64,000 bases of DNA from Marchantia polymorpha subsp. ruderalis (Eukaryota; Streptophyta; Marchantiopsida; Marchantiales; Marchantiaceae). The stretch lies in NCBI GenBank assembly GCA_037833965.1, contig AP031351.1:22952501-23016500 (forward strand). Direction: 5' to 3'. Of the stretch, positions 2,934 to 61,636 are shown in pieces. A model generated the notes under the pieces. That model saw only the letters and a list, made by a program, of their open reading frames with translations. It made no database searches and was not told where the DNA came from. Numbering within the stretch: the stretch's first letter is position 1; each line of letters starts with the position of its first letter. Both the position numbers and the translations under genes were made by a program.

Positions 2934-3189
2934 TCTCGAGCGCCTTATTTCCTTATATAATTTCTTGCACTCATCAAAAAAGATGAAAAATACAATTCGG
3001 AATTTGCCACCCACAACGACACCATTCGACTCCGAATCCGAGTGCTATTCCTTACACAACATTTTAAACTCATCAAGATAATTGAAGAAGTCAATTTGTG
3101 AGGTCACAAATTGCCTTCTTCAATCAGTTTGGATCCTGCAAACGCACTTAGACTATTGTACTCTTGTTTTTTGATAGAGCCTTGGCAAT

Positions 3190-3480
3190 GTTAGAACCTT
3201 TTCAAATCTAGACATGTCTTTACTCTTATCTCCAACTCCGGGCGCCAACCGCGGCAACGTCCATAGCCTAGGGATGATCTTTCTTAAATCAATTCTTGAA
3301 CTCATCAAGAATAATGAAGAAGACAATAGATGTCTAAGTTGTAACCTTTTCAAATCTAGACATGTCTTTACTTTTATCTCCAACGCCGGCGTCGACCGCG
3401 GCAACGTCCATAGCCTAGGGATGATCTTTCTTAAATCACTTCTTGAACTCATCAAGAATAATGAAGAAGACAATTGATGT
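3190..3480. repeat. Two tandem ~150-bp units (HMG-box derived)
   Basis: The + strand shows two near-identical units (about 3190-3340 and 3341-3480), each from CTTTTCAAATCTAGACATG to a run like GAATAATGAAGAAGACAAT. They differ by point changes and a 1-base indel at the GGGCGCC/GGCGTC position. Both are HMG-box pieces when read on the - strand. Confidence 0.8.
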
Positions 3481-3713
3481 CTAAGCAAACACAACAACAC
3501 TCTTGGTCTTGTGAATATCTTCCTTCAAAGACTTACTTAAGTCATCAAGTTAGATGAAAAAGGCAGTTTGTAACCTCTTCAATTGCTTTGGATCTTGTAA
3601 CGTAACATATACTTATTGTCCTTGTGAAGGAGAGGGTAGAGTGCCCTTTCCTTCGTGATCGGATTATCAAGACATTTCGCGCCTTTGGCGCTTCCTTCAT
3701 AGAGGCAAAGAAA

Positions 3714-3763
3714 TCTCCCTATTGGTCCGAAATTGCATGCGCATCTTCGGACCCATAGGGAGA
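3714..3763. repeat. Hairpin with 18-bp arms
   Basis: TCTCCCTATTGGTCCGAA at 3714-3731 pairs with 3746-3763 (17 of 18 positions) around a 14-base loop. Function unknown. Confidence 0.7.
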
Positions 3764-4639
3764 GATATGTACTGCGAAGACTAAAGGCAGAGGTGGATAG
3801 GGGAAAAATATTTTTAATGGTTGAATGGCCTCCCTACAAACCATATGTGCAAGATTATATTGCATACGGGTCTCTGAGGGGATGCTATTCAACAACAATT
3901 GGCCGGGCGCAACGTCACTCATTCTGCAAATTTTCATATTTGTAAATTCATGATTCCATAAACTATTTCTGTTGAGACTTCGCAATGTAGGGAGCCATCT
4001 CAAATTGAGACTCTTCGGTTGATTTGGATTTTGTAAACTCACATAGATTTATCGTACTCTAACTTCTTTTGACCTTTCACAATCTACATTAACCTTTCTA
4101 GCTTCTTCTGTTGACAGTTGCAAGTGAAGGATGGCTTCTCAAATGGAGCCTCGTCAATTGCTTTGGATCTTGTAAACTCACTCTTGATTGATCTTACTTA
4201 AAGTATTTCTTGAATTCATCAAGAAAGATGAAGAAGTCATTTACACCCTTGGATTCCCACACGCTTATAATATCATCCTGAGTCCAAGGCTGTGGATGAT
4301 ATTACTTCAAAAAATTCTAACCTCAAGAAGAAAGATGAGGAGTTAAATTGGTGGCCTTTTCTTTTGATTTGTATCTTGTAAACTGATCTAGACTTATCTT
4401 ATTCTTGTTTCTACTCTTGAGACTTAGCAATGCCTTTCGACCCAACGCAGTTTAAGTTACATTGCTTCTAGGGTTTAAACTTTCGATTACAGTACTCAGT
4501 GTGAGCACAAAAATTCGCTCACATGTCTTTTTAACCTGATGAGAGTTAAAATTCTACATTTAAGCTCTTGCAAAATTATGCTTGGAGTTTTCTGAAAGTT
4601 TTGTTAAGATTAGGAGTTGGTGTAATAGCTAGTAAGCAA

Positions 4640-5640
4640 AGGTGCGGAAAAGGGCCTTCGGGGCAAGGTTTTCGGCGAAGTGCCTTCAGTGAAGTCCCTT
4701 CGGGAAAAGACCTTCGGCGAAACAGTGAAACCCTCATAACGTTTTCAATTTGTAACGCCTTGAATTAATTAGGGTCTTGTTGGAAAGAGCTTCTGACGCT
4801 GGTTCCAACGAGACCAAGAACTTTTCAAACGGATCAGAGTTCAGTGAGTTATGAATGTCTAAAGTGGCTGATAGGGTTAGGTAGCACGAGTTCGGCGGAA
4901 GGGCCTTCGGCGGTAGCTGTCCTTCGGCGGAAGCGTAGAACCGTGATAACTTTTTTGGTTCTGAACGGTTTGACTTTGTTAGGGGCTTGTTGGAAAAAAC
5001 TTAACACGCTCGTTCCAACAAGCCCAAAAACGCTTTAAACGGATCAGGGATCAGTGAGTTATGAGTGTCTCGAGTTATGAGTTATGAGTTATGAAGTTTA
5101 TGAATGGAAGGGCCTTCGGCGACGGACGTCTTCGGGATACGCCTTCGGGGATGCAGGAGAGTGCTTTCGGCGGAAAGGTAAAACCGGCATAACTTTTTCA
5201 ATTTGTAATGGTTTGACTTAATTAGTGTCTCGTTGGAAAGAACTCGCGATGCTCGTTCTAACGAGACCAAGAACTCTTGAAACGTATCATAAGTGAGTGA
5301 GTTATGAATGTCTAAAGTGGCTGATATGGTTAGGTAGCAGGCCTTCGGGGCAAGGCCTTCGGCGGAAGTGTAAAACCGTGATAACTTTTTCAATTCATAA
5401 CGGTTTGAGTCAGTTAGGGTCTTGTTGGAAAGACCTTGCGACGCTTGTTTCAACGAGACCAAGAATCCTTGAAACGAATCAAAACTCAATGAGTTATGAG
5501 TGTCTAAAGTGGCGTATATGGTTAGGTGAAGGGCCTTCGGCGACGGACGTCTTCGGTGACGGACGACTTCGGGGATACGCCTTCGGGGATGCGGGAGGGT
5601 GCCTTCGGCGCAAGAGCCTTCGGCGGTAGGATGACTTCGA
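4640..5640. repeat. Diverged ~220-bp tandem repeats with CCTTCGG clusters
   Basis: About four diverged units carry the same order: a CCTTCGG-rich patch, AACCGTGATAACTTTTTCAA, GGGTCTTGTTGGAAAGA, GTTCCAACGAGACCAAGAA, then GAGTTATGAATGTCTAAAGTGG. The patches consist of many close copies of GGCCTTCGGCG-like words (near 4655-4720, 4890-4940, 5105-5180, 5340-5370, 5525-5640). Translated on +, the units give similar peptides (for example TVITFSIHNGLSQLGSCWK) with stops, so any coding past is decayed. No long terminal repeats or polymerase motifs were found around it. Confidence 0.7.
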
Positions 5641-5929
5641 CGGTGTGTGGATTAAGATTTCCGACGGCGGAGGTCAACGTGGTCATGAATGTGGAATGTG
5701 CAAGTGCGGCATGCAAGCGGCCTGTGGGCACCTCGGCCCTTGGACTTTTGGAGATGAATTTTTGGCCTGGGGATAGAGATCGTGTGGTGTGCCATTGTGT
5801 GGAGACGCTGGTGGGATCGGTAGGAGGAATACAGTGTGGATGTGAGTGATTTTCGCCGGGAAGTGGTGAGAATTAGGAGGGGAATGTAGAGAATTCGAAG
5901 GAGGAGGGAGAAAAATCTCGAGGGTGGAG

Positions 5930-6270
5930 AGTCGTATCTGAGAGTGAAATTTAATCGGGGTCTGAAATCGAGGTGTCGAATCTGTGAGTGGGAGCTGAAA
6001 TCGAAGTGGAGGTTCTGAGAGTGGGAGTTGAAATCGGACTGAAATCTGAGACTAAAATCTAACAGTCGGGATCTGAATTTGAAATTGAAAAGTGAGAGTT
6101 AAATCAGAGAGAGAAATCTGGTGGGGTCTGAAGGTGGAAGCTGAGAAATTGACACCGAAATCTGAGTAGGTATTGGGAGTGGAACTGAAATCGAAGGTGA
6201 GAACTGAGGCTTTGAGACTGAAATCTGATACTCGACATTGTGGGTGGAATCTGATAGGAGGGAGAAATCC
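5930..6270. repeat. Purine-rich degenerate minisatellite
   Basis: The + strand is a run of short G/A-rich words such as CTGAGAGTGGGAGTTGAAAT and TGAAATCGAAGTGGAG repeated with many changes. The antisense frames here (Ser/Pro/Gln-rich) are products of this composition, not genes. Confidence 0.6.
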
Positions 6271-7101
6271 CTGAGTGCAAGGGCGTTGAGTGCGTGGGGC
6301 CGCTGATAGTGTCGCCGGAGGGCTGAGTGGAGAGTGTGTGTGAAGGCCAAGAGGGTCGCTGGGCTGAGAGTGAGTTGATCACTAAGAGGAAGAATCAAGC
6401 AAAGTGTTGAGAGTAGAATCGTGTTCCCTGGGTGTGAAGATTGCTGTTAAGAACGGTGTCACCTCGTGCTGCCGGTGTGTTACCTGACTTAGTCTGAGGC
6501 AATGTGTCCGAGATCTGGCACTCATTCTAGGATAGGCCCGCAGCGGCCGTAGTATTGAGAAAGTCACCCAGAGTGGGGATAGATCCTTATGTTACGAGGA
6601 GCTTGTCTGCTACTCTTGTGAAAATAGCAGACAGCAAGTTGTTAGTGTCAGTTCTGGACAATTTGTCTGCGAAAAATCGAGTATTTATAATTTCATTGTC
6701 TTGAATACACTTTGAGCACATGGTTTGAGATCAGAGAAGTTGGATTATGGGAGCTAGAACCCCCACCTGGATTACAAACGCTGAAGGGTGGGGAGTTTCG
6801 GCTCACACTCAGCTCTATTTATAAACATGTTATAGCTTTGTTTCCACTTGATTGACGGTCCAGTCGGTAATTTCATCCGATTGAATCTTAGTTTGAGATC
6901 CAGATAGGCAGTATTAGAAGTTCACGAACTCTACCCGTTTCAATCATCGGTTGACCTTCAGTTTAGGAGAATTGGAGCTCACCATCGGTGGGAAGGTGAG
7001 CAAAAAACTGCGTAGGGTCTGTACCCACTTCTCCTGATAAAGGCAGTCTCATTCATCTGCGCTTCATCTTATGCATCAAGGATTCGTGAACTGAACGGAA
7101 C
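6271..7101. other. Spacer without a supportable gene
   Basis: No family signature is visible. A TATA-like CTATTTATAAA lies at about 6815-6825 (+), but no convincing frame follows before the duplicated segment starts. Confidence 0.4.
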
Positions 7102-7381
7102 CATATTCAGGTATTCACTGGAATACGAACAGGTGTACAATGTTGTGTGCATTGAGTGATGAGAGGGGTCAAAGGAGCAAATTTTTATGATCCGCACTAC
7201 TCGGAGGGAATGAGAATCCTCCGATATTCCTAAATTTTCATGTCGAGATTTTCAGATGAAACAGCACTCATCGTTCCTGAGTCAATTGACTCGTTCAAGA
7301 CGAAACGGATGGGACAAAAGATCTGACTACCAAATTACAATAGCGTGAGCTTGATCGTAACAAATATTTCAGTTGGAACAA

Positions 7382-7612
7382 CTAACCAAGTCGAAAAAAT
7401 CTTAACATTGGACTAGGAGGAAGAACAGATTTAGAATTACTCAATTGGAACCCACCAGAGAATCCACAGCACTTACAAAAATGAGAGTCAAGTCCGAGGT
7501 AAAATGCTTGATCAAAAATGGTACCCAACGAAATATATTTTTTAATCAACGTACATGTTGTCCCTGTAGAGATACGCTGATTTGCTGAGTGCCGTGAACC
7601 ATGATTATTCAT
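7382..7612 (-). other. Conserved small ORF of unknown status, copy 1
   Basis: This 76-codon ATG frame is preserved in copy 2 (12240-12470) with only two residue changes. A third, much more diverged copy near 15240-15310 keeps the pattern C-x-C-C-x-Y/F-S-G-x-F in the same frame. That hints that the stretch around SHFCKCCGFSGGF was coding, perhaps as one exon. There is no signal peptide or known domain. Preservation between copies 1 and 2 alone proves little because the DNA is near identical. Confidence 0.25.
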
Positions 7613-8056
7613 TTTCTATCTGGTTTGATTACCGTGGCACTAAAAACATTACACTGCTTATTTGTCTCTGATCAGGTCCATATTTATAGACTAAGCGCTT
7701 TGATTTAAATCCTGCGTCACCAGTAAGAGCAGGAAGTATATCGGGCTTCCAGGATACTAGAGACTGGATGCCTTGAACAACCATTTTCAGCAGTAGAACA
7801 CATCAGTCCACCTCCGACCGACGGGACTGATCAAGATGGCTAAGAAACTTCAGGAAGTACTCATTGTTCTGGTAGAAGCTGCGGACAGAGAGAATCACCC
7901 GATGACAGTTGCTGGAAGATGCGCTCATCTTCCAGCGATGCGTCCCAGCGTTTTGTCTGACCGTGCTAGGAATCCGAACGGGGAAAGATCAAGATGAAGG
8001 AGCTGGAGATGGTGATTTAGATGGAGGAGAACGGGGGACAGATTGAAGACGAGCAG

Positions 8057-8482
8057 TTAGATGTGAGTGGGAAGAGGTGGAAGAGTCGGAAGAGGAGGTA
8101 GCGTAGGAATGTGAGTAGGACGAGGTGGAAGCGTTGGAAGAGTTGCGAGAGGAGGTAGCGTTGGAATGTAAGTGGGACGAGGTGGAAGCGATGGAAGATG
8201 AGCAGGAAGAGGTGGAAGCGTGGGAAGAGGAGGCGGCTTTCGGATGTCAGTAGGAAGAGGTGGGAGACTTGGGAGCGGAGGCAGCGATGGAAGATGAGAA
8301 AGAAGACTTGGTAGAGGAGGCAACGTTGGAAGCTGAGTAGAGAAAGTTGGGAGGGGAGGCAGCGTTGGAAAATCAAGCATCATACGAGCTCCCAGCACCG
8401 AAGGAAAGCATATCGCCGTAAAACAGATGAAACTCATGAGTTTCACTGGAAAGTCCCTCAGAGATCGATACATCGTCACCAT
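8057..8482 (-). CDS. Small secreted proline-rich protein, copy 1
   Basis: A 141-codon frame starts at ATG 8482 (an in-frame Met at residue 16 is an alternative). Residues 16-31 form a signal peptide (MSFICFTAICFPSVLG, Ala next). The mature part is built of Pro/Leu repeats, with units like PTLPPLP, PSLPPLP and PTHIPTLPPRP. This composition is typical of structural or cell-wall proline-rich proteins, though it lacks the SPPPP of extensins and has few Tyr or Lys for cross-linking. A TATA-like element lies 90 bases upstream. The second copy has 122 codons and a different repeat number. The product class is supported by signal peptide plus repeats; biochemical function is unknown. Confidence 0.6.
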   Translation of the reverse strand: MVTMYRSLRDFPVKLMSFICFTAICFPSVLGARMMLDFPTLPPLPTFSTQLPTLPPLPSLLSHLPSLPPLPSLPPLPTDIRKPPPLPTLPPLPAHLPSLPPRPTYIPTLPPLATLPTLPPRPTHIPTLPPLPTLPPLPTHI

Positions 8483-8571
8483 CTTGATAGAACGCTGGAC
8501 TGAATCTGTCCTTTGTTTCGAGTTGCTTCGTCCTCTGCAAGCTGATGACGGATATGCTCAAAGTAGGAAGC

Positions 8572-8577
8572 TTATAA
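8572..8577 (-). promoter_or_regulatory. TATA-like box of proline-rich gene copy 1
   Basis: TTATAA (within CCCTTATAAGC on the - strand) lies about 90 bases before the ATG at 8482, a normal distance for a short leader, and is conserved in copy 2. Confidence 0.45.
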
Positions 8578-9100
8578 GGGCCCGATTTGGACTCAGATCT
8601 GTGAGAGTATTATGGCAGGCCGGATATGACAGTCAGGGCGGGTGGGCAGTTCCGTAGTAAGTTACACTTTCCTACCATGAGCAACGACATTCGATCGTTT
8701 CGGAATTCTAGAGCCTGAATCTGCGGACCGAAGTGATGGACCTTAGAAGTCGTGCTGGTTTATCAATATTATATTGCTTAGGCGTCGTTTGATTTTTGCA
8801 GTCAATTGTTGCTGAATAATGTCAGATCAATAACTGCACATGTCCAAAACTTTTGTCAATTATCATGTGAGCGTGTAATCTATACGTACGAGCAATAGCG
8901 ACCGAGATTGGTTCATTTGTTTTCTTTCGTGATTGTGGGTACAGTAATTCGGAAGGGTAGATGGTTTCTCAAGGTAATGAGTATATTATTATTATATGAG
9001 TTTCTTATTCGAATTTTTTCCTGTCAAATTTGAAAAGGTATTGAGCAGATCATGTTACGATATCTATCTTTGAAGAAATTTGGAAATGTCTCTTTAGATA

Positions 9101-10256: not shown

Positions 10257-11965
10257 TTATTTTAATCCACAAACATACTTAACTTTCCATTGCTCTTCTT
10301 CAATGACACCATAAAAAATCCAGTTTTTGTTATCCTTTTCCTTCAACGCCTTCTCATTGTACTCATTGATTTTAGATTGCTTTGACTTATACAATTTTTC
10401 ATGTGTTTCTTGTCGTGCTTTCATTGTTCTGCTTTTGATACTGTATGCTGATATTAGCTTATCATACACTTGCTTCTTTTGTTGAGACTTGGCAATATAG
10501 GGAGATTCTCAAATTCTAACATGTTTTTTTTTTCTCTCCTTTTGCTTTGCCAACCAAGGCGACACCCTTTACCTCAGAATGATCTTTCTTAAATCACTTC
10601 TTAAACTCATCAGGAAAGATGTTAAAGTCAATTGATGAATTGGCCAACCACAGCGACATACTTGGCATTGGCATGATTTTTCTTGAATGACTTCTGAACT
10701 TATCAAGAAAGATGAAAAAAAAAGTTGGTATTCTTATCAACCATGGCAACACCCTTATATTTGGGATATTTTGACTTATATGACTCTTTTAATTCATCAA
10801 AAAAGATGAAAAAGTCAATTGATGGCATCTTCCATGGTTTAGATCTTGTAAGTTGACATAGACTTATTACTTTCTTGTTTCTTCTATTGAGTTTTTGCAA
10901 TACAGGAAGCCATATAGTATATATGGCAGTACAGCCAGCCATCTTATTATAGTAAGATATTTCATTACTCTTTTATCTTTCAGCTTTGCCAACAACGGCA
11001 ACATCCTTGGCCTCAAGATGATCTTACTCAAAATAATTCTTGACCTCATAAAAAACATAAAGAAGCCAATTGATGGCCTTGACAATCATGATGACCGTCT
11101 TGATCCGAGTATGATCTTTTTTTAACGAATTCTTGAACTTATCAAGAAAGATGAAGAAGTCACTTGATTGTCTTGCCAATCATGTCAACACCCTTGGCCT
11201 CAAGATGATCTTCCTTTAACAACTTCATGAACTTATAAAAAAATGAAGAAGTTAGTTCGTGGAATCTTTGGTTGGTTAGGATCTTGTAAGCTGACATAGA
11301 CTAATCAACTTTTGCTTGTTTAGTTGAGTCTTGACAATGTATGGAATCTTTTCAAATTTAGACATGTCTTTTCATTTTTCTATTGTATTTGTCAACCACA
11401 GCAACATCCTTAGCCTTAAGGTGATCTTCCTTAAACAATATCTTCAACTCGTCAAGAAAGATGTAGAAGGCAGTTAATGATCTTGCCAACCACACTTGCA
11501 TCCTTAGCCTTAGTTTGATATTTCTTAAATGACTTATTGAACTTATCACTTGCATCCTTAGCATTAGTTTGATATTTCTTAAATAACTTATTGAACTTAT
11601 CAAGAAAGATGAAAAAAGTAGTTGGTGATCTTGCCAATCATAGCGACATCCTTGATCTAGGTATCATCTTACTTAAACTTCCCAAACTCATTAAGATAGA
11701 TAAAGAAGTCAATTGATGGACTCTTTGGTTGGTTTTAATCTTGTAAGCTGACATAGACTTATTAATCTCTTGCTTCTTTTGTTGAGACTTCTCAAATTCT
11801 AACATTCTAACATTCAGTTTTATTTTTTTTCTTCTGCTTTGCCAATCACAAGGTCATTCTTGGTATCCGTATAATCTTCCTTCAACGAACTCTTTTGCTT
11901 CTTCTATTGAGCATTGTCAAATTCAAGCATGTTTTTCCATTTTTTTTCTTCTGATTTGCCAATAT
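10257..11965 (-). pseudogene. Array B of broken HMG-box copies
   Basis: At least ten partial HMG boxes follow each other on the - strand. Reading from high to low coordinates: IGKSEEKKWKNMLEF (11890-11965); NDLVIGKAEEKK (11830-11870); EKSQQKKQEINKSMSAYKI (11735-11795); DFFIYLNEF and KDVAMIGK (11630-11715); FFIFLDKFNKLFKK (11560-11620); FNKSFKKYQTKAKDASVVGK (11490-11545); LTAFYIFLDELKILFKEDH, KAKDVAVV, then KDMSKFEKIPYIVKTQ (11280-11480); AKGVDMIGK (11170-11210); DFFIFLDKFKN (11115-11160); DHLEAKDVAVVGKAE (10980-11040); PSIDFFIFFDELKESYK and GVAMV (10740-10825); EVKGVALVGKAKGEK and SPYIAKSQQKKQVYDK (10450-10640). These match the three HMG-box helices of plant HMGB proteins. Stops and shifts break every box. 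The lowest part continues open as a Lys-rich tail to 10257. Confidence 0.75.
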
Positions 11966-12239
11966 GCAGGTATTTACTGGAATACGAACAGGTGTACAAT
12001 GTTGTGTGCATTGAGTGATGAGAGGGGTCAAAGGAGCAAATTTTTATGATCCGCACTACTCGAAGGGAATGAGAATCCTCTGATATTCCTAAATTTTCAT
12101 GTGGAGATTTTCAAATGAAACAGCACTCATCGTTCCGAGTCAATTGACTCGTTCAAGACGAAACGGATGGGACAAAAGATCTGACTACCAAATTATAATA
12201 GCGTGAGCTTGATCGTAACAAATATTTCAGTTGGAACAA

Positions 12240-12470
12240 CTAACCAAGTCGAAAAAATCTTAACATTGGACTAGGAGGAAGAACAGATTTAGAATTACTC
12301 AATTGGAACCCACCAGAGTATCCACAGCACTTACAAAAATGGGAGTCAAGTCCGAGGTAAAATGCTTGATCAAAAATGGTACCCAACGAAATATATTTTT
12401 TCATCAACGTACATGTTGTCCCTGTAGAGATACGCTGATTTGCTGAGTGCCGTGAACCATGATTATTCAT
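12240..12470 (-). other. Conserved small ORF of unknown status, copy 2
   Basis: Counterpart of 7382-7612: 76 codons, two residues changed (Ile to Met, Phe to Tyr in CKCCGYSGGF). Status as a gene is unproven. Confidence 0.25.
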
Positions 12471-12914
12471 TTTCTATCTGGTTTGATTACCGTGGCACTA
12501 AAAACATTACACTGCTTATTTGTCTCTGATCAGGTCCATATTTATAGACTAAGCGCTTTGATTTAAATCCTGCGTCACCAGTAAGAGCAGGAAGTATATC
12601 GGGCTTCCAGGATACTAGAGACTGGATGCCTTGAACAACCATTTTCAGCAGTAGAACACATCAGTCCACTTCCGACCGACGGGACTGATCAAGATGGCTA
12701 AGAAACTTCAGGAAGTACTCATTGTTCTGGTAGAAGCTGCGGACAGAGAGAATCACCCGATGACAGTTGCTGGAAGATGCGCTCATCTTCCAGCGATGCG
12801 TCCCAGCGTTTTGTCTGACCGTGCTAGGAATCCGAACGGGGAAAGATCAAGATGAAGGAGCTGGAGATGGTGATTTAGATGGAGGAGAACGGGGGACAGA
12901 TTGAAGACGAGCAG

Positions 12915-13283
12915 TTAGATGTGAGTCGGAAGAGGAGGTAGCGTAGGAATGTGAGTAGGACGAGGTGGAAGTGTTGGAAGATGAGCAGGAAGAGTTGGAA
13001 GCGTTGGAAGAGGAGGTAGCGTAGGGATGTGAGTAGGACGCGGGGAAAGTGAGGGAAGAGGAGGCAGCTTTGGAATGTGACTGGGAAGAGGTGGAAGCGT
13101 TGGGAGAGTTGGGAGAGGAGGCAGCGTTAAAAGATGAGTAGAAATTGTTGGGAGAGGAGGCAGAGTTGGAAAATCAAGCATCATACGAGCTCCCAGCACC
13201 GAAGGAAAGCATATCGCCGTAAAACAGATGAAACTCATGAGTTTCACTGGAAAGTCCCTCAGAGATCGATACATCGTCACCAT
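12915..13283 (-). CDS. Small secreted proline-rich protein, copy 2
   Basis: A 122-codon frame starting at ATG 13283. The first 46 residues, including the signal peptide ending in FPSVLGA, are identical to copy 1. The mature part has fewer and rearranged PTLPPLP / PTHIPTLPPRP-type repeats, so the genes differ mainly by repeat gain or loss. A TATA-like element at the same distance upstream is conserved. The role is inferred to be extracellular or wall-associated; partner and substrate are unknown. Confidence 0.55.
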   Translation of the reverse strand: MVTMYRSLRDFPVKLMSFICFTAICFPSVLGARMMLDFPTLPPLPTISTHLLTLPPLPTLPTLPPLPSHIPKLPPLPSLSPRPTHIPTLPPLPTLPTLPAHLPTLPPRPTHIPTLPPLPTHI

Positions 13284-13372
13284 CTTGATAGAACGCTGGA
13301 CTGAATCTGTCCTTTGTTTCGAGTTGCTTCGTCCTCTGCAAGCTGATGACGGATATGCTCAAAGTAGGAAGC

Positions 13373-13378
13373 TTATAA
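13373..13378 (-). promoter_or_regulatory. TATA-like box of proline-rich gene copy 2
   Basis: TTATAA at the position equivalent to copy 1, about 90 bases before the ATG at 13283. Confidence 0.45.
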
Positions 13379-14553
13379 GGGCCCGATTTGGACTCAGATC
13401 TGTGAGAGTATTATGGCAGGCCGGATATGACAGTCAGGGCGGGTGGGCAGTTCCGTAGTAAGTTACACTTTCCTACCATGAGCAACGACATTCGATCGTT
13501 TCGGAATTCTAGAGCCTGAATCTGCGGACCGAAGTGATGGACCTTAGAAGTCGTGCTGGTTTATCAATATTATATTGCTTAGGCGTCGTTTGGTTTTTGC
13601 AGTCAATTGTTGCTGAATAATGTCAGATCAATAACTGCACATGTCCAAAACTTTTGTCAATTATCAAGTGAGCGTGTAATCTATACGTACGAGCAATAGC
13701 GATCGAGATTGGTATTTTTTTTTCTTTCGTGATTGTGGGTAATTTGGGAGGGTCGATGGTTTCTCAAAGTAATGAGTAGATTCTTATTTTATGAGCTTCT
13801 TATTCAGTTGATTTTTTCCTTTCAAATTTGAAGAGCTATTGAGTAGAACATGTTACGACATCCATCTTTGAAGAAACTTGGGAATGTCTCTTTAGATTAT
13901 ACAAAAGACATATCAACTCTACCCATACGCGCATTGATCAAGACCTTCTGTTCTGAAAAAACTGACTCCGTCCAATATTCAATGTCTTGAACTACAGTGC
14001 CGAGAAAAGAGATACTGTACAACAACTCTGCTGCACCAGCGAGTATAAAAATCTGCAAAATTGACGATTGTTAGGTGCTTTCCAATACAATTGTATGTAG
14101 ACTTCTAAATATTTTGGTAAACGAGTGCATGTTCGCTTTACCACAATCACTGTAAGGTGATACCAAGCACTTATTTAATCAATAAAAAAATGCCTAGTAT
14201 GTCTTTACTTTCTCATTCCATAACTTAATATATAGGTCATTAAGATAATGTATATCATTCCAGACAGTAAGATCATGAGGCTGGAACTTGTAATGCCCAA
14301 TTGTTTGTTTGTTATAATGCGATCCATGCTATCAAACTAACTTGTACGATAAATTCATCCCCAAACCTCTTTTCTCAAATTCTAGACTTGTATCCGTAAT
14401 ATCATAAATTTATAGAAGGTAACATGATATTCAATTACATGAATGACACTTCATCACGACCCACCACCAGGAGTAATCTTACATAAAACCTCGCATGTTC
14501 GTGAAATATTGAAACTAATAATAACTACCAATGTGATTACTAATCATATTAAA

Positions 14554-17274: not shown

Positions 17275-20200
17275 TCACATAATTGTGCAGCTGCATTTCG
17301 CCTTCGATGATTTTATTGGCGCAACGTCCTTCTTCGCGCTAACTTCCACGATTGTGTGTGCAGGAGAATCCATGGAGTTAACCTCCTTCACTGGAGACAA
17401 CATGAACTTTGGTGGAGACAAATGAACTGGAATTTTCACATCCTCTACAACGACCTTCGTTTCGGGAACTCCACCATCCTTCTCCGAAGATTTCATGTCT
17501 CTCTCAAACAGTTGAGTAGGAGGACTTTGCAAGCAAGTATCAACAGGTGTAAATGATGATACTTGCTGACCCATGAAGGCTAATGCGCGCCGTACAGACG
17601 CAGGACTGGAGTTCACTCCCTCTCCATTCCACTTCCCCAGCTCTCCTCCTACGTTTGCAGAATCAACTGTATCCCTGGTACCGTGCGCAGGTAAACCTAC
17701 ATCTCAACAAGTTTGAGAGCGTTAGTTGCACTGGTTTGCTTCTCGTTGCTGTAGCTTGGACATACTGATATTGGTGACTATGGGTTGTAGGTTTGACTAT
17801 GCAATAAATATGTGGTCCGGTCTGCAGTTTTGTTCTCGTGAGAATGCCTATCACCAGCACTTAAGGCAGAAGTGATAATAGAAAGCGTTGAAATAGTAGT
17901 TGAAGTGTTCTCTGACTCGCGGTCATATTCTCACTCAGAAAACAGGAAGATAGTGTGAACTAGTATAATCAGTGGAATCTTAACACATCTGTAGCTCCTA
18001 CTCCCATTCATTACAATCTCCAACCTATGTGAAGTAATATAGGGACTATTTAATAGCTCTAGGCTCCACTGAAAGGCGAGATTCAGCAAGGTGAGCTCCA
18101 CACCTCCTCACTCTTTGATTCTCTCGTTGAAAAATCTGGGTAGCAAAACAAGGACTCTCAAGTTCCTATAAATGACTCCACAATTTTCAATTCCTGACAT
18201 TTCTACCTGAATGGTATTGTATTCGAAGAGCTTACTCTTTGAGTACAATTCTTACTCTTTGTAGGTAAAAGAACCACACCGAGTAAATGATCCAGAATGT
18301 CAGCTTTGCTATGAACCACGAGTAAGATAATACCTGTTGTGCTTGGTTCCCACTGAAGGCTCTCTGGTGAAACAACCGTGACGCTCGTGTACCCTGTTGG
18401 TCTCTGCGTTTGTACTGCTTCATCGGGTGAAAGACGTTCCTCCACGGCTGGTTCATTCTGAGAACCAGAATTCAGCGACATTGTTCGGACGGACTTAGCC
18501 TTGCTTATGGGTAGTTTTTTGGCCAGCTGGCTTCCAACACCATTCATTTTTTCGCCTACAACAGCAGCATCAGCCAACCCAGCATCGAATGGAGTGCCAC
18601 CTTCATTGTTCAATTTCGACTCCACTTTTTCATCCCCAGTTACCCTTTCTGACGGAATGATCTCAATAACAGGAACTCCAGACTGAGCACTTGGTATAGT
18701 CACATCAAACCTTCCTCCCGTTGGGCTTCGAGAAAGTGCATGTCCTTCGGAATCTTTTTGCGCTTCGGAAAGGTTGCCCAAATTTCCTACTTGTTCCACG
18801 TTCTCGCTGTGACTTGAACTTGGATCCATGTTGCACGCTTTATCATCTGATGGCAAGCTCTGTTGTCGATCAACTTCCTTGGGCCCATTAGCTACGTGCA
18901 ACTTCTCGCTCTGTCTGAGATTTTCGGCGGTATTCCATTTCTCATCGGAAGGAGTCGAGCTTCTTTGTTCATTCCACACTTCTTCCTCAATGCTGATGAA
19001 TTCCTCTTTGTAAAGTGCAGGAATTCTACTTTCAGAAACCGATGGTAAATGTGGAACATCGGGCTTACCTGCGGATGTTTCTGCTGACTGTACTTCGCCA
19101 CTCTTCGAAGAATCCTCGATTCCAGACGAATTTACTGACTCCGCTTCATCGCTCTTCGAGACATGCGAAGACTCAGTACATACAGGACTCTCACCTAGAG
19201 AAATAAGAGACCTCTCAATATGTCCACTATCCGTTCGATCCTCATGTCCACTCTCATCTTCCGCACGAGATGCTTCAGTCTGAAGCTTCTCAGCACCACT
19301 GGCCACTACAGCGATAGATTGAATAGGCGCGTCAGGAAGGAATTCGTGATCTAGGATTTCTGGAGCCTTGGCAACCATAGATGACATTTCCTCCTCCCCA
19401 TCGGCTCTCGCGCTGAAAGTATTGTCAGCTGGACCTACTTCCGAGTCGTCCAGTGGTTTGTCAGTACCAAACGATTCGACCACGATACTTTCACCACTTG
19501 TTATCTGGTCCTCACTGCTTTTACTCGGCAACGTCTCTGATTGAGACTTTGAGTCACTGACCTCGGCCGTTGGGTTTGTAGGAGGAGAAAGTAGCATCTG
19601 TGAGGTCTCCTCTTGATCTTCCTCAGCGGCACCTTGAGTACCCGCGCTGTAAGTCTCTTGTTCAGAACTAGCAGCTAAACTGCCCACTGATGTAGAAAGG
19701 GAGCTGGAGTTATGACTGACGCATTCTTGGTATGAATCCTCCTCGTCAGTTACAGCTGTGTTCTCTACATCAGTTGGGACCGGCACATTGTCAAAGGTTA
19801 CTGAGTTTCTGCGTTTTGAATGAGAGCTTTCCTCGCCGTCCCGCTCATCAGAAGCTTGCAACTCAAGCAATAACTCCTCTTTCGGAGGAATAATATCCGT
19901 TGCAGATATGTGGACCTCCCGTATATATAAAGGCTCCTCGCTTCCGACTTCCGTAGCTTTCAGAGACTCCACCTCACTCTGCTCTTCACTTAAACTGTGA
20001 GAAGCAAGAGGTGGATGTGAGTCTGGGGCCACCTGCGACAGGCTTTCTTCGTTCAGTGGAAGCCGATCTCCGCAGTCTTCCTTGATAGAGTCATCGCACG
20101 GTGTTTGAGATGCATCTTCGCTGGAGACAACCCTAAGACCAAGAGTCAAACCGTCATCTCCCTCGAGGTTTGCAGATCTTGTATCTGTCACAGAATCTTC

Positions 20201-23200
20201 GAGGACAATATAGGCATCAGGCTCCCGTGAATCTGAATCAGGCACGGCATGGACGTACGTGGATTCCTTTTCAGCAACAGCTACCTTTCCATCTTGAAGT
20301 TTCTCCTCATACTCTCCTGCCAGAACAGTTTCCACAGTTGAGGATTGGATTGATGGCTCTCGATCAGAGATTATGACGCTGGACCCTACAGGGTAGTCAC
20401 ATGAGGAAGCACCTTGAGCTCTGTCCGCTTCCAAGACTTCAGAGGTCTGGCCATTGACTTCTGAGTTCAGTTCAGCTTGAAGTGGAAGAGCATCTGCAGT
20501 AAACCGTTCTTGTGGACTCTCCGGCATTTCTGCAAGTGGATCTTGATCTGCTGATGGTACTTTCGGATACTTTGGTGCTTCATTTACATCATGCTGCTCT
20601 GCAGATGCTCCTTCGCTAGGAACTGCAGGCATCTCTCCAGGCAACGTTTCCTCATCAGCTCCTAAAACTCCTTCAGTGCTTCCTTCATTTCCTCCGGCAA
20701 CGTTATAAGGCTCGATCAATTTCTTCTTCTCTGTAGATAAGTTTGACGTCGAGCTTTGGACTCCATCCACTGAAAACTTGTTTTCACGACCTGGATCGTC
20801 TTCGTCAGAGTGTTCTGATCCAGGACTCGTTCTTGACAGCTGGTTTCCAGTCGGCTCTACCTCAGCACATGGACAATCGGCAAGTACAACGTCATCGAGC
20901 ACCACTGCGCCTACCGTTGGCCCTACGTGAGGATCCTGGAAGCTCTCTTTTTCCAGGTGCTCCTCATCAGCTGAACGTTGCCCTGCCGATCCTTCTACAT
21001 CTTCGACAGCGTGAGACCTTAGCCCTACAGAATGGCATTCACCAACGGATTGCACGTCTGTAGAGATGTCGTCCTCAAGTCTCAAGCTTTTCTCCTCTTC
21101 CACCTGACCATCGACGACAGCAAGTTGATGCGGAGAAAGCGAGGCTACAGGACTCAAAACCCCGTCTCTGCTGACTGTCTCAGAGATATCCACATACAAG
21201 GCTGGAGAACTCGCGGTTTCATCTGGGCCACGGATATCAGGCACTGAGATGTTTCTTTCATCCTCAACAACTAAACTTGAGACCAAACTCTCAGAGCTCA
21301 TTTCTTTGTCAGGTGCGGAGTCCTGCAAAACATCTTCATCCAAACCTTCTGAAACGGGCCCTTTGTGGACTTCTAGACTTTCTACACATTCCGGCTGCTC
21401 CAGAACCACATTATGATCAGCAGCACTTACGTCTTGCTCGTCAGAGTTTGGGGTAGTAGTCGCATGGACTAACGCTCCAGCAAGTAAGGTTCTTGGTGAA
21501 GTTGGGTCACCTTCATTGACGTTGTTGTGTATCTGTAGAACCTCCAGTGAGCTTTTAGGTGAGTCTACGAACTCCACATCCTCTTCCGCAAAGACTGGTG
21601 TGGATGTCTTCGCCTTATCCAGTGAGACCTCATTCGGATGGCCATTTGAGTAAAGTGTCAACCCATTCTCGCTGGACCTCGAAAGTCTGATTTCGCCGTT
21701 GACTTGGTTTGTATTAGCATCTTTCCCGGAGGGTTTCGATTCCTGAAGTTGGGACAGGTCATCCTCCCCAGATCCTTCAGGGTAGGCACTGTCATCATCC
21801 TCAGCCCACAACATATCCAGCAAATCTTCCTCTTCATTTGATCTAACTGGCCCCGGAGATTCATCTTGCTCCTGTTCCCGCAAAAGCTCCGAGGTCCGAG
21901 CTGACAGCTTGTCCTTGCCGACCATCACGTCCTGCTGGCCAGAAATGAAAGGTTTACTAGATTCTTCGATAGCACTGTCGATCTTTTGGATCAACCCAGC
22001 TAACTGCTCCTCAAGGGCTGCACAGAGACTGCCTGCACTTCTCATTTCAGAAAGTGGTGTTGGCAACCGACTTCTGGGTCTAGTAACACCTTCGGACATA
22101 CCCGTTCGTTCGTCAGTAGATCGAACAATTGGACAACCAAGAACTACCTCCTTACTCTCAACAAAATGTGCAGAAGATACCTCCTCGCTGTCCATCTTTT
22201 CTTCTGAAATTGCTTCAAAGTAGTCTGAAGTCTCCACCGACTTAGTGTCAAGGTACTCCAGACTATATGACTCTTCAACTACGTGATGTTTCAGTGATGA
22301 TTCACTTACATTCGACGAAAACTCTTCTGAAAGAGTAACGCTCTGAGGGAAAGCTACTGATTCTTTCACCTCACACACATTACTGTCCTCGCCGATTACC
22401 TCTTGTGAAAATTCCAGATTCTTGGAAGAGGCGGCCTCGGACGTATCCAGACTGCTCGCGTCCCCTGGATGATGAGGCCCTGAGCCCTGGTTCAGCTCTT
22501 CAGAACGGGCTCCAAAATCCTCAACATCATGGGGAAGAGGAACATAAGGCTTTGACATAAGAGTGTCAGCGGTTGGTTCATGTAAGACTTCACTGGGGCC
22601 CAGACTCTTCACGGATGATGTTTCGTCATCCTCCAGACTCTCCATCATCTCATTCTCCAGAATTCGAGAACGCTCTTCTGAGAAGATCGAGCCCTCAGGT
22701 CTGGCTTCTTCGACAACCTTGCTTTCTGATTCACAACCGTAATAAGGAGTTGCTTGGCGTTCCTGCTTGTCCTCCATCTCATCACCAGAGTGAAGGGAAA
22801 GCTCATCCACGTATGGAGGGTCAGGAACCGAATCGAGGGCTGTATCTTTTAACTGAAGTTGGCATTCTTCCAAGGCCGCCTTAACAAAGATCTTGCCTAA
22901 AATGTCATCAGATGCAGAAAAGCCCTCAGATACTGCTTCTGCGCAGCTTCCTTCATCCTCAGGAGAAGCCATGAAAAGGTCTTCTTTCACCTCCTTCGAA
23001 CTGACCACGTCAAGATCCTTCACGATCTGACTGTCGTCAACCTTTCCAGAATCAAAAGTTTCAGTGCTCACATCTTCTTTCCGGAAACTGCCCACCACGG
23101 CCTGGGGTTCCGGCAGTACTGGATTGTCCATCACGCTCGACTGGAAACTGGTTCCTACCGAGACATTTTCTAAACCTTGCTCATCTTCCTTGCCTACCAC

Positions 23201-26200
23201 AATGTGGAAATTGAGCGGAATAGACTGGTCCATCCCAGTGCCCAGGTGACCAGCCTCAACAGACATACTACTTGAGCCTTCTTCATCCCTGCCCGCTATA
23301 GTCTGGGAAGTGGGCAGAATTGGCTGGTCCATTTCGCTCTCCTTCGAACTGACTCCTACCAGCATCCTCGATAAAACTTCTTCATCCTCACTGCTTGCTA
23401 TCATCGGGGCCGTAATCGGCAGTGGCTGGTGCATTGCACTCCCTTCATTGCTGAGTTCAACTAACACACTACTCGAAATTTCATCATCCAAGCCATGTAC
23501 CGTTGAGCTATCCAGTGTCTGCGCCTCCTCTTTCTCGACATCCTCGACAGTCAAATATCCCCCACCTGCGCCGCCCAGAATCGATGCGCTGGTGTGATCT
23601 ACTTCCTGATTAACAGAAACGCCATCGGCATCCTCTGTCAAGACCCTCTGGTTCTTCACCAAGTCGGGCACTTCTAGGTGTTTCTCCTGCTCTGAGCAAT
23701 GTGAGACATCCGTAGTCACTATATTAGGTTCACTACATTGTTTGTGATTAACTTGCTCCGGTAAGATATCCTCAATCTGTAGAAAATCGTTGATTTCTTG
23801 ATGGCCAACATCAGATGGAGCTGGAGCATCGACAATCACCGTATGGGCTTCCTCAACCTCACTGAGCACAAGACCCTTGCCTCTACTAGGTGGTTCCTCT
23901 TCCACGACCATTCCGCTATTTGAAACATCCAGCTGGTCTTCCTTGACCGGGGTCTGTAATATGACAGGGCTGATGGCAATGAGGTCCTCCTCTTGCAGAG
24001 AAGAGCAGACCCCAGTCGGACTTGGCGGGTTGGTCTCCTCTCCGTCCCTTTCAACAACGTCTTGGGCATCTTTCTCAGATGTCAGGTGACGCTCTATCTT
24101 CACCGTCGGCGATATTCCATCGAATTGCACCGAGGCCTGAAAGCCACTCTTAAGAGGTGTCACCGGCTCAGGTTCATCACTTGCTTCTACTTCTATTTGA
24201 TTCTCCTTACCAGATAGTAGGAAGTCGTCCAAATTCATATTGGTGACATCGAATTCCGGTTCTTCATGTGAAAAGCTAGGACTCCCGTGTAGCACAATGG
24301 CGTCTCCGGAGGCCACATTTTCACTGCCTTTCACTTCGACACACCTCCTTTTCGGACTTTCATGTAAATCGCCTGCTTCCATCGAGGACACATCTGCTTC
24401 CACTGCCATAACAAATCTTCTTTTCGGGCTTTCATAACCTACTTCCTCCTCCATCGCCCTCACCTCCTCTTTACGAAGAGCACTCCTGTGGAGACTCTCC
24501 AGTAACTCCAACTCACCCTTTCCACCGTCGTACATTATAGAGTCATCTTCAATGTCATGTAGCTCAGGAGTGTCAACCTCATCCATTGCATGAATCTCTT
24601 CGTAGCTTAGACCACGTCTGATGTCAGATGCTTGAGAGTGAGAGGGCCTCCTTAGACTGTCAACATATAGCTTACCATCCAGCACAGCAACTGTTGGGCG
24701 TATGGTCTTTGAACCCTGATTTTCCAAGTCTAAGTATTTAGGCTGAGACGACTCGTGCTTGATTCTCTCCATCACATCCACGAGACTTAAAAGGGCTGAG
24801 TTGTTAGCATTGTCATTCTCGTCCGCCTGGAGCCGCAGGACATCTGCTTTCGATGAAGCCTCCTGCATGTGAGAAAGAACTGGCTCGGAATTTCCAACCT
24901 TCCCTCTCGACTGAGGACGACGAGGCAATTTACTTTCCATCTGCGTAAACGAAGTTGTTCCTCCTGAAACTTTGAGCTTCTGCTGAGAAAAGTCGTGGGT
25001 TTGCCTCACATTTCCGAAGTCTTTGCGACTCATTATGCTGCCAACTCCATCCCCGACCCAGCTAGTGTTGGTTGCTTCTTCTTCGGGAGCAGATGAGCTA
25101 TAAGAAATAGCTGAAGCTATCTCCTCACCTTGAGGGGGAGCAAGACCCACTCTGAAATCGCGCACAAACAGACATGCAGCATTGATATCTGCATTGGAAA
25201 CCTTGCTCTTCTGTGAACTCAAAACTCTCTCTCCCGTGGCCATGTGAACATCTGCATCGTACTTCCGGGACTCGTTCAGAGCATCTAGCAGTTCCTGCCT
25301 CTTCAATTTCGATCCGAGTTGTCCCGAACCGCTGTGTCCCTCATGGCCTAGTTTGTCGTAACCAGCCCTTGTGTACCCGTTCCCATCATCTGAGCGCTGA
25401 ACGTCCGGTATCCGGCTGTCCTCGATGTTGCTGGCTCTCCTCTGCAAAGGCCTCTCCCCTGAACGACGTAACTCCACCTTACCATCCTCAATATTGCTGG
25501 CCCTTCTCTCCAGAACCCTTTCTCCCGGTATTATTTTCTTGGTGTTATATACTTCACCCATGAGGCCAAGTTGCTCAAGCATCTCCAAACTTGCGATACC
25601 GTCACTTTCATAGAAACTGGTTACTTCGGTATCTAAAGTGCTCTGCATACCTGGCTTATATGAGGCCACAAGGTCATTACTATTCAGACGATCGTAGTCT
25701 TGCCATGCGACCAGCTTGTCTTCATCCTTGTCCAGCATTAATATATCCGCTTGCCGTCCTCTAGGACTAGGGGACAATCTTCGACCGTAACTATCCCAGC
25801 TCAGGAGGTCATCGTCATCTCTCTCACTGCCCTCGGTATCAGGAGCTACAGTAGTACCATGTTCCGAACTGGCGTTGCTGCTGGTGGTTACAGAAGAATT
25901 CATAGCAGAGGCTGGCCTCACGATGAGACTATTTGCCCGTGTCCCATAGAAAGGAGATCCAGGACTACTTGCCATCAAATGTCTGTATGAGCTTGGGGAA
26001 TGTTGGTATGCCTCCTGAGCAGTCGTAACATCAGGTGCCATGGATTAGATAGCTGTCTAGAGAGAAAGAAAAATTTCATCGAGTTGATCCAATACCCGTC
26101 TTGTCTAGTTTCGAATATGAGGAAAGTCGGGAACGAAATAGTACTTCGGCTCTCGCTAGTTGGACGAACTAAACATTATCTTACAACAGTCGTAACAATC

Positions 26201-55670: not shown

Positions 55671-56262
55671 GCAAGCTGATTTTCCAGCCCTACGTGAGTA
55701 TCTGTCGGTCGTCAGCACAACCCACTAATTCGAGTCCGTGACCAGAGGGTGGAGGAAAAACTTGGGGATTTGTTGACGTCCAGGCTTTAAAAGTATGAAG
55801 GAATAATTGTAAGTGGATATTAAGTCAAACGCCAACGCCTATTATTTAACCATCAACGCATCAGGCTTCTATCAAAATGAAAACAGTAGTTTTAATCGAA
55901 TCACTAATGGGATATTTTTTTAAGATCAATTTTCAATTGTCATATTCAATTTGTTTTTTACTTAGTTATTTAATGATATATTCATAATATTTAAAAAAAA
56001 CTGACTATTCTAGTCAATGAAGACGGGTTTTAAAAATTAGAAGAAGAAATAGGTATCGCGAGATAAATGTTACACCTAGACATGCAGATAAATGCAGATT
56101 TTACTTGAACACACCACAATGATTTTGAACATGTCCTTAAGGGAAATATAGCTTTATTGATGATGCTTGTTCTGGAACTCTTGATTATAACATAAAGTTT
56201 GGAGAGCCATATTTCTTTAGATTATATATTTGAACGTAATGTTATTGTCTTTCAGGCTGATT

Positions 56263-56300
56263 TGTATACACTGATTTTTTTAGTAAAATCAGTGTATACA
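56263..56300. repeat. Perfect hairpin, 16-bp arms, 6-base loop
   Basis: TGTATACACTGATTTT pairs with AAAATCAGTGTATACA around TTTAGT. Confidence 0.85.
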
Positions 56301-58243
56301 AATGATGTTTTTATAGAGTAATTTTCACCTACATAGAAATGCTAATACACTGATATTTTCAATTTCAATATTCGAAACTATTGCTTACACACAAAGAAAT
56401 TAAAAGACAGCCATTCATCTAAGTTGAGACACATATATGATTTATCTCAGTGAGGGTACATCCAAACGGATACAACATCATTTCAATAATATTCTAAATT
56501 TTATGACAGTGAGGGTTACGACCAGTTCTCTTATAAACTAGTTAAACAAATCAAAATATATTAGATTTGAATCAACTCCTGATAATGTACCTCTTGATTC
56601 ATGTTTCATCAAATGTTGCTCTAATTATCTCAATGATAATTCTATGAAAAAAAATAGTTCACTTGGTGACTTTGTTGCCACTATATATTCATTGTGCATA
56701 GTGCATATTGCTATGCATCCCTGCCAGATTTCTTTTCTAACTAATGCATCCACCCACAATAATAAACACATATTAAAATTTCTCTGGTGTAGATACTTTA
56801 GTTTTTACTACGTTTTCAATAAAAATAAAAGGTTTTTTTTTTAAAAAAAACTCTTCTTCAACAATCACCTTAATGTTATAGTATTTCTTAAACTGAAAAT
56901 TGTCACGCCAATTGCAAATCCAAAAACGTTAATCATTGAATATAGGATCTTTGAAAAGATACTTTTATTCTTGATTATAAACAGAAATCAAAAATATTTT
57001 CATAAATAATTAATTATGTCTAAATTAAAATGATGTCAACAAATGTATGACAATTGATCATATACATTGCGGTAAGTCTAATTTCAATCTGAATTTATGT
57101 AGTAGATCAGGTTAATTCAACATACCACATACCTTTTTCAGAACATTTTCGTTCAGTCTTTGAGGAATAGCATTTTATTGTAGAAATAAATGATTGTAAG
57201 AGTAAAATTGGTACTTTATCCTTTGCAATTACTTCTAAACTCCGAAACAGTACATTTATCTGCACTTTATGTAGATCTATTTCAACTTGTGATCAATCTT
57301 TTTTTTTGCTTATAAATTTGGAAATTTCAAAAATTTCAAATGTTTTTTGAAAAAATTTACTCCACAAAAATTTTAATTAATTATAAAAAAATGTGATATT
57401 TTGGAATATAATTTCAACACATAAAAATATTGAAATTTATATTAAAAAATTTCAAAATCTCAAATTTTTATCATGATATTTGCTGAAAACACAATGTTCA
57501 TAATTTTAAATATTAACATTTTTTTCAAACTAATAAAAAATTCCTATTGCTTAAAAATATAGAATATTTTTTAATATTTTTTAAAAATAATTTATTGAAT
57601 ATTGGAGATACAATTTTTAAAAATAATTTACATGAAAAATTTTAAAATTTAGTTAATTAATTTCATCACTGACATTATTGTCTACGAGTATATATTTTTT
57701 TATTTTATTTTATATAATAAATTCATCATAATTACTATCACAAGAGCAATTAACTATCATTCAAATTATTATTTGAGATGATTTCATTTTATGAATATAT
57801 ATATTATACAGACATATTTCAAATTTATTTAAAATGTGAAACTATAATTATAAATCAAAATTTTAACGAATTAAGTCAAAAGTACCAAAAATAAAAATTT
57901 ATGTATTTAAATTAATTTTATTATTATTTTTAAAATAGTAGGATTTAAAATTTATAAATAAAATTACAATGTATATGTTAAAATTTTATTTGGTACTAAA
58001 CCGCTATTCAAAAAATTTTGTAATAAATGAAATTGTTGTGCAAATATTCAAGTGTTTGGTTGTACATAATTTTTTTGAGGTTTTCATGTGAGTATGTTAC
58101 TTGAAATATACCATCTTATATTTATTAGCTCTTTGAAACAATAACATATTAAAAATTTCTGGCAATTTTTATTTATTTTTTTTCTTCAAGTGAAGAAAAT
58201 TTTATTTTCTTCATTATATAGAAGTTTTCTTCATTTTTCTTCA

Positions 58244-58476
58244 TTTTTGGTACATTATGTTGAGTTTTGTACTTATCTTCACTTTTTTAAAAATAAATGA
58301 AAAAATTTTTAATTTTTATTTTCGTAAAAATTTAAGTTGTTCTTTCTGCGTATAACTAGATCATTTGCTTTTAAATTTTTCTTACTAATCATTTAAAAAC
58401 ATTTTCAATCATTAGATTGTATCACCGGTTTATCTATAGAGTATTATGTACAAAACCCAACATAATTTACCAAAAA
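58244..58476. repeat. Inverted repeat pair, 28 bp, 177-bp spacer
   Basis: The 28 bases at 58244-58271 (starting TTTTTGGTACATTATGTT) match the complement of 58449-58476 at 26 of 28 positions. This could be the ends of a small foldback element of 233 bp in the AT-rich block. Confidence 0.65.
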
Positions 58477-60901: not shown

Positions 60902-61636
60902 TTAATCCGGATATGGTCTTGGCTGTACATCATGTTCTACTCGAAAATATTGGAACATCATCGAAGGTGGTGCTCCAAGGCCGTCGCTGGGTCCCATCGG
61001 GTAAAATGAAACCCGATGAGTCCCGTCAAACAATTTTCTCGAGATTTTTGTCATTGGAGTCAGTTTCAAGGAACGGGGCAAAAACCAAATTACGTTCAAA
61101 CGTTGAAATATTTTCCCATAGGAGCTAACAGGCAGAACGAAAAGAGTACAATCGAAACAACTTCCAGCCACGAAAAAGCAAGAACATAAGAATCGCCTGT
61201 CGCTGACGTCGTCTGAAAGTGCTGCTTCGACATACTTATGCTTTGCATTCTGAACATGCTTCACGGATGATACACATGTTGCATGTATCGAACTGTTGAT
61301 GCTGTATATAGAAACTGGATCCCACCCTCGAATGAATCTAAGTCCACCAGACGGGAGCTTTCTAATGTACGCTACCGTGAGATTTAAAGGCTTGTGTCTC
61401 TTCGTACGGCGTATCACAAAACGTATTGCTCTCCTATAGTAAAAGGCAGCGCCTACACACGTATGGAATACGTATGCGCACGTATAGTCAGACAACTTGA
61501 GATGTACCTGTGAGTTCCTGACACGTTTGCGTTGAACACTAGTCACATGTCTAACTTGAGTATGGTAAGTTGACTCTTCCGAAAGCAAATCAGCTGACAG
61601 GCTTGGATCCGCCGATACGGTCAAATTGAACACCAT
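60902..61636 (-). CDS. Hypothetical protein, 244 residues
   Basis: An uninterrupted frame from ATG 61636 to 60902. It is the longest frame outside the recognised genes that is not in a strongly GC-rich patch, so it is unlikely, but not impossible, by chance. The protein starts MVFNLTVSADPSLSADLLSE, has basic stretches (FVIRRTKRHK) and several Cys/Phe-rich segments. No signal peptide, clear membrane helix or family motif is seen. Neighbours give no clue. It may be one exon or a decayed element frame. Confidence 0.3.
   Translation of the reverse strand: MVFNLTVSADPSLSADLLSEESTYHTQVRHVTSVQRKRVRNSQVHLKLSDYTCAYVFHTCVGAAFYYRRAIRFVIRRTKRHKPLNLTVAYIRKLPSGGLRFIRGWDPVSIYSINSSIHATCVSSVKHVQNAKHKYVEAALSDDVSDRRFLCSCFFVAGSCFDCTLFVLPVSSYGKIFQRLNVIWFLPRSLKLTPMTKISRKLFDGTHRVSFYPMGPSDGLGAPPSMMFQYFRVEHDVQPRPYPD

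Follow-up and report, generated by a model that had tools for sequence, protein, structure and literature searches.

The array of HMG-box pieces at positions 10257–11965 of the window, by which we mean the whole 64,000-nucleotide stretch of Marchantia polymorpha subsp. ruderalis DNA that was analysed (C2:22952501–23016500), very probably derives from the plant's own HMGB gene, which has a single box, as a retrocopy that is dead and internally repeated; it most likely has no function for the plant today. This array, designated as array B, does not stand alone. The commonest repeat joints are common to arrays on other contigs, and array B therefore belongs to a dispersed family, of which we counted by hand, among the matches listed, arrays or copies at no fewer than about 30 places on C2–C9 (eight of the nine contigs, 241 Mb, that were searched). 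The HMGB arrays are a retrocopy family, and neither a multi-box gene nor a homogenised satellite.

Array B and its surroundings in the window

The preliminary description of this DNA read the segment as a series of plant HMGB-type boxes, all on the − strand and all broken. With the box and acidic tail of the intact HMGB gene on C9 as the query, which is independent and not derived from the window, the segment gave 13 HSPs of at least 25 bits, some of them overlapping and all on the − strand, with a best score of 50.8 bits. Among 200 dinucleotide shuffles of the same segment, the best score was 22.3 bits and none reached 25. Likewise, the partial spliced parent mRNA covered 1549 of the 1709 bp at 30 bits or more and 0 bp of every shuffle. 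Taken together, we confirmed that the array is real, lies on the − strand and stands far above chance, and both the type of box and the single orientation were as first described.

An nhmmer DNA profile of 183 units, which was built in part from units of the window so that the parent-gene query remains the independent test, resolved array B into 12 pieces. Three of these are near full length (10437–10639, 10840–11079 and 11279–11483), and half-boxes, recurring with a period of about 94 bp, make up most of the rest; TRF detected the 94-bp period at 10999–11252, inside the array. The pieces are indeed broken, most being half-boxes, and the earlier count of at least ten boxes holds for pieces rather than for boxes. 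The last unit runs from most of a box into the acidic tail without introns and corresponds to positions 108–421 of the partial spliced parent mRNA (77.7% over 314 columns). The Pfam HMG_box (PF00505) search that had been proposed as a check reached only 10.9 bits (E 0.63) on the stop-masked frames of 10257–11965, and a genome-wide search with the same model at E 0.001 listed 21 matches, none in the window. This check is too insensitive here, because the pieces are short and frame-shifted and a protein model of 69 positions tolerates that badly.

Table 1. Array-related features of the window (positions are those of the window)
Feature	Positions	Strand	Basis and remarks
Array A	2949–4432	−	11 pieces; nhmmer, TRF, Pfam HMG_WDHD1
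Dispersed high-copy element	4498–6808		Inserted at the 5′ edge (− strand) of array A
Proline-rich-ORF segment, copy 1	7103–9099	−	Beside array A and the inserted element; self-comparison
Last unit of array B	10329–10637	−	blastn of the spliced parent mRNA
Array B	10437–11962	−	Head-to-tail box pieces; nhmmer, tblastn of the parent box with shuffle control, TRF
Proline-rich-ORF segment, copy 2	11962–13897	−	92.7% identical to 7103–9099; self-comparison

Array A, which had been overlooked, contains a 147-bp duplication whose copies are 95% alike (3195–3485, TRF), and one of its stop-masked frames matches Pfam HMG_WDHD1 with an E value of 6.4e-6, under the curated cut-off of that family. A third array, of 23 pieces (nhmmer), lies directly upstream of the window at C2:22948149–22951364. 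The arrays at C2:22.91–22.97 Mb have common flanks and the same strand. In the window, the second proline-rich segment has an edge exactly where array B has its 5′ end, and the proline-rich ORFs (8057–8557 and 12915–13358, − strand) are duplicated with this segment of about 2 kb. The array in the window thus shared in a local segmental duplication with a proline-rich gene. The ORF has a signal-peptide-like start, as judged by eye, and a Pfam search of the copy at 8060–8557 returned no family.

The high-copy element beside array A gave 2525 and 733 first-look candidates genome-wide, 40 being scored each time, and it contains internal tandem repeats of about 190 bp and TTCGGCGGAA motifs. Elsewhere in the window, the + strand carries at 1942–2646 an ORF with a Spherulin4 domain (PF12138, E 3e-26), a family known mainly from fungi and slime moulds. 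The − strand has a 2613-aa open frame at 18203–26044, acidic and low-complexity in appearance and without a Pfam match at E 0.01. The GC content of 56001–61000 is 20–27% in 2-kb windows, far under that of the rest of the window.

A spliced HMGB mRNA as the template

The parent HMGB gene, for which a search of the assembly had been suggested, was located on C9. A canonical plant HMGB query, with which the broken arrays rank first, also matched C9:9583526–9583606, and this match led to an intact gene at about C9:9.58 Mb (within L062, C9:9580500–9587000). Its product is a protein of 170 aa with a basic N-terminus, a single box (PF00505, E 2.7e-21) and an acidic tail. The exons are open, the box is interrupted by three introns, and there are further introns on its flanks. 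All seven introns from the ATG exon onwards start with GT and end with AG, and two further introns in the 5′ UTR, likewise GT–AG, lie between 1172 and 1336 and between 1417 and 2175 of L062. The exon ends in the partial parent mRNA fall at 132, 190, 235, 319, 409 and 468. The consensus of the array units is itself an intact box (PF00505, E 1.8e-17), and the units are mostly 70–85% identical to the parent.

A 77-aa unit query gave at least 153 matches in the genome (150 of 284 candidates scored), with none on C1 among the matches listed; the best 30 all contain stops, and some weaker ones have no stop. From the roughly 30 places we analysed 24 merged stretches, some with several arrays, exclusive of C2:26.38M, C2:27.33M, C4:5.60M, C4:5.71M, C6:29.07M and parts of others. 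The stretches C2:22.91M and C2:22.94M duplicate one another locally and hence are not independent. The array at C2:28.92M is partly inverted, with 19 pieces running one way and 6 the opposite way (nhmmer).

We decomposed the 24 stretches against the parent mRNA with free jumps and counted how segments scoring at least 18 pass the splice joints. No more than 3 nt was inserted at the three joints within the box in 209 of 210, 133 of 134 and 137 of 144 spanning segments, and at the joint that follows them in 82 of 84. Pooled, this makes 561 of 572, against 21 spanning segments (5, 0, 5 and 11) in one shuffle of the same stretches. At the remaining joints (ATG exon, tail and stop exon), clean spans numbered 12 of 13, 18 of 19 and 14 of 15, respectively, with 14, 3 and 13 spanning segments in the shuffle. 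The counts at the ATG-exon and stop-exon joints are thus at noise level, and the case there rests on BLAST alignments with E <1e-30, which cross the former at C2:28.38M, C3:10.07M and C8:12.0M and the latter at C2:28.92M (twice), C2:9.8M, C3:6.3M, C5 and C9:3.3M. Because the decomposition is permissive (shuffled versus real segments, 269 versus 528 at a score of at least 18 and 75 versus 396 at a score of at least 25), single short segments were not relied on.

Spanning counts favour spliced copies by design, and a search for introns served as the counter-test. The nine parent introns, the queries for the two in the 5′ UTR being a few bases off, gave a single chance match of 28 bp in the 24 stretches, and the box introns are absent from 23–24 of the 24. 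In addition, untranslated sequence was carried along at both ends. The stretches at C3:10.07M and C2:28.38M start with the two 5′ UTR exons in spliced order, and C8:12.0M has the end of the second 5′ UTR exon as a weak match (E 0.011). Sequence past the stop codon is kept in C2:9.8M, C5, C2:28.92M, C9:3.3M and C3:6.3M. C2:9.8M is a single-box copy aligned over 534 columns. The copy at C5:7.17M extends far past the stop codon. It lacks 69 nt, has gained an insertion of about 0.9 kb and shows no poly(A) where its match to the parent ends. This insertion, past the stop codon (L011/L063, C5 ~7167690–7168579), has inverted ends, as judged by eye.

Given that the units cross the three box introns of the parent, the template was spliced mRNA, and specifically that of a gene like the intact HMGB gene on C9. 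The copies bear the marks of retrocopies, namely intron loss, UTRs carried along and disabling mutations, with stops in 135 of the 183 units (270 HSPs minus those of fewer than 30 positions and overlapping ones).

Repeat registers and decay of the units

The decomposition yielded 240 backward joints (jumps of at least 40 nt between segments of at least 35 nt, with gaps of at most 12 nt), compared with 27–45 joints and no cluster larger than 3 in five shuffles. A joint of 94 bp occurred 58 times in 12 stretches, one of 221 bp 57 times in 13 stretches and one of 345 bp 24 times in 7 stretches; three further registers were private to one stretch each (81 bp, 14 times; 249 bp, 9 times; 111 bp, 8 times). 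The occurrence of the same joints on different contigs suggests that the arrays, or an arrayed ancestor, dispersed. Back-splicing, i.e., a circular RNA, was considered as the source of the joints and rejected, since the common joints, 306>86, 197>104 and 356>15, do not match the exon ends given above.

The mean distance between units (segments scoring at least 20, with a length limit) was 0.282 within stretches and 0.281 between them for the half-box core, and 0.263 and 0.281, respectively, for the 345 family. The nearest neighbour lay in the same stretch for 23 of 133 half-box cores (shuffle mean 14.8, maximum 31), for 6 of 33 units of the 345 family and, in mild excess, for 14 of 73 second half-boxes (shuffle mean 6.6, maximum 16). 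In the half-box core, units of one array are thus not more alike than units of different arrays, as they would be in a homogenised satellite; the second half-box and the 345 family do show some closeness within arrays. A few very close pairs, such as one at a distance of 0.021 at C9:3.3M, reflect later local duplication. On the whole, these distances suggest a burst followed by independent decay with little homogenisation, and the amplification and subsequent decay that had been proposed from array B alone found support.

The changes are biased, with C>T and G>A at 0.22 per site and the other transitions at about 0.06, and CG and CHG sites are altered more than CHH sites in the two large families. 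Such a pattern would fit methylated repeats, and a general GC-to-AT bias could also produce it.

Origin and dispersal of the arrays

The course of events that we consider very probable would begin with the reverse transcription of HMGB mRNA by the enzyme of a retrotransposon. Pieces of the copies were amplified in head-to-tail order, in six or more registers (94, 221, 345, 249, 111 and 81 bp), for which template slippage, concatemer formation or unequal exchange may have been the route. The arrays may have dispersed when transcripts of arrayed copies were retroposed anew or when extrachromosomal circles reinserted, and they may have been silenced through cytosine methylation. The units of the two large families then decayed, chiefly through C>T and G>A changes and with no visible sign of coding constraint.

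Tandem growth in six or more registers is odd for processed pseudogenes of one gene. A more speculative version, to which we attach a rather low probability, is that of a "retrosatellite", in which HMGB mRNA was repeatedly reverse-transcribed into concatemers, through slippage or a circular template, so that six or more registers would have been present at birth. Partly inverted arrays such as that at C2:28.92M could still be a source of small RNAs that reach the living HMGB gene. Within a 1060-nt stretch of the parent mRNA, 50 positions start an exact 21-mer that is present in the array stretches, and a regulatory role for the arrays is possible, if hypothetical.

That identical internal joints recur on several contigs calls for a means of movement, and a DNA transposon or Helitron might have taken up an HMGB cDNA together with its repeats and spread it, as a hAT element did with histone H3 in Pseudocercospora. 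A high-copy element does border array A and is also present within the array at C9:6.4M, and fragments of it occur close to other arrays. However, this element far outnumbers the arrays and is missing from the corresponding sites in L060 and L061, which makes it an unlikely carrier. We compared the flanks with the units masked, as an unmasked all-against-all comparison is swamped by the units themselves. Among the 24 unit-masked stretches there were 142 flank matches, not all of them classified, and those that could be placed trace to leftover mRNA sequence, to the local duplication, to the high-copy element or to a repeat of 244 bp, which occurs at three loci and is inverted between some of them. 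No flank was found in a consistent position in these stretches, many flanks being 1.5 kb or shorter. We therefore regard carriage by a transposon as improbable.

Less probable still is that the arrays are remains of a true multi-box HMG gene family, an enlarged relative of the 3xHMG-box proteins, which expanded as coding genes and then died. The intact box in the unit consensus would agree with such a history, as would the registers of 345, 249, 111 and 81 bp, which are multiples of three and preserve frame. That four of six periods are divisible by three would by our own estimate arise by chance with a probability of about 0.1, a point against the main reading. The commonest registers, 94 and 221 bp, break frame; arrays with such joints could not encode a chain of boxes, and their boxes are not joined in one open reading frame. 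The longest open frame among the matches listed, 203 aa, is shorter than three boxes, and the stops in all of the best 30 matches also speak against coding arrays.

The mode of decay points in the same direction. Corrected for base and context (segments scoring at least 25, with an identity of at least 0.66), the observed/expected ratios of mismatch to the consensus at codon positions 1, 2 and 3 were 1.01, 1.05 and 0.96 in the 94/221 family and 1.05, 1.00 and 0.95 in the 345 family, and by codon position these two large families decayed neutrally. The smaller and noisier sets gave 1.13, 0.93 and 0.93 (249 bp) and 1.29, 0.60 and 0.99 (111 bp), and C8:12.0M, as evidence to the contrary, had 18 changes at second codon positions versus 30 expected. 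The consensus of the 94/221 family differs from the parent at 19 of 121 third positions and at 8 of 120 and 7 of 119 of the others, a preponderance of third positions that is expected if the parent stayed under selection. A poly-box protein is thus rejected for the common registers on account of both the 94- and 221-bp periods and the neutral decay.

The preliminary description had supposed local amplification of an exon or small gene. Simple tandem duplication in place, whether of an HMGB exon or of an HMGB gene with few introns, for all that the tandem layout, the common orientation and the local segmental duplication resemble it, has next to no likelihood given the intron loss, the spliced UTR exons and the joints common to several contigs.

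In the open-licence literature of PubMed Central, as judged by title and the start of the abstract, we found neither HMG arrays nor comparable retrocopy arrays in plants. Processed pseudogenes of HMG genes are abundant for mammalian HMGB1 and HMGN2. The retrocopies described here resemble these in their spliced-mRNA origin, retained UTR pieces, disabling mutations, dispersed sites and intact parent, and differ in that most copies are internally tandem, that repeat joints are common between loci and that the host is a plant. In the PAI inverted-repeat silencing of Arabidopsis, repeated and partly inverted gene copies are likewise present, which, as here, could feed small RNAs onto the parent; the HMGB units, however, are mostly 70–85% identical to their parent.

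Two further systems come close. The D4Z4/DUX4 macrosatellite arose by tandem amplification of an intronless DNA-binding-domain gene copy and has many dispersed relatives (PMC3004920). It shares these traits with the HMGB arrays and differs from them by an ORF in each 3.3-kb unit, whereas the HMGB units are decayed gene pieces of 81–345 bp. In Pseudocercospora fijiensis, a hAT transposon amplified histone H3, with inactivation through RIP (PMC6710886). There too, a chromatin housekeeping gene gave rise to dispersed, cytosine-decayed repeats and the original remained intact; unlike that case, no carrier transposon was found for the HMGB arrays, and their copies are intronless and internally tandem.

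In Marchantia, a conserved chromatin gene thus gave rise, via its mRNA, to tandem arrays that form a dispersed family and have since decayed, and the intact parent persists. With the parent, near-single-box retrocopies, and several registers and joints in one genome, the family offers a readable record of how retrocopies become arrays. Given that such sequence resembles anonymous AT-rich spacer and falls under the Pfam cut-offs in the window, similar families may be missed elsewhere.
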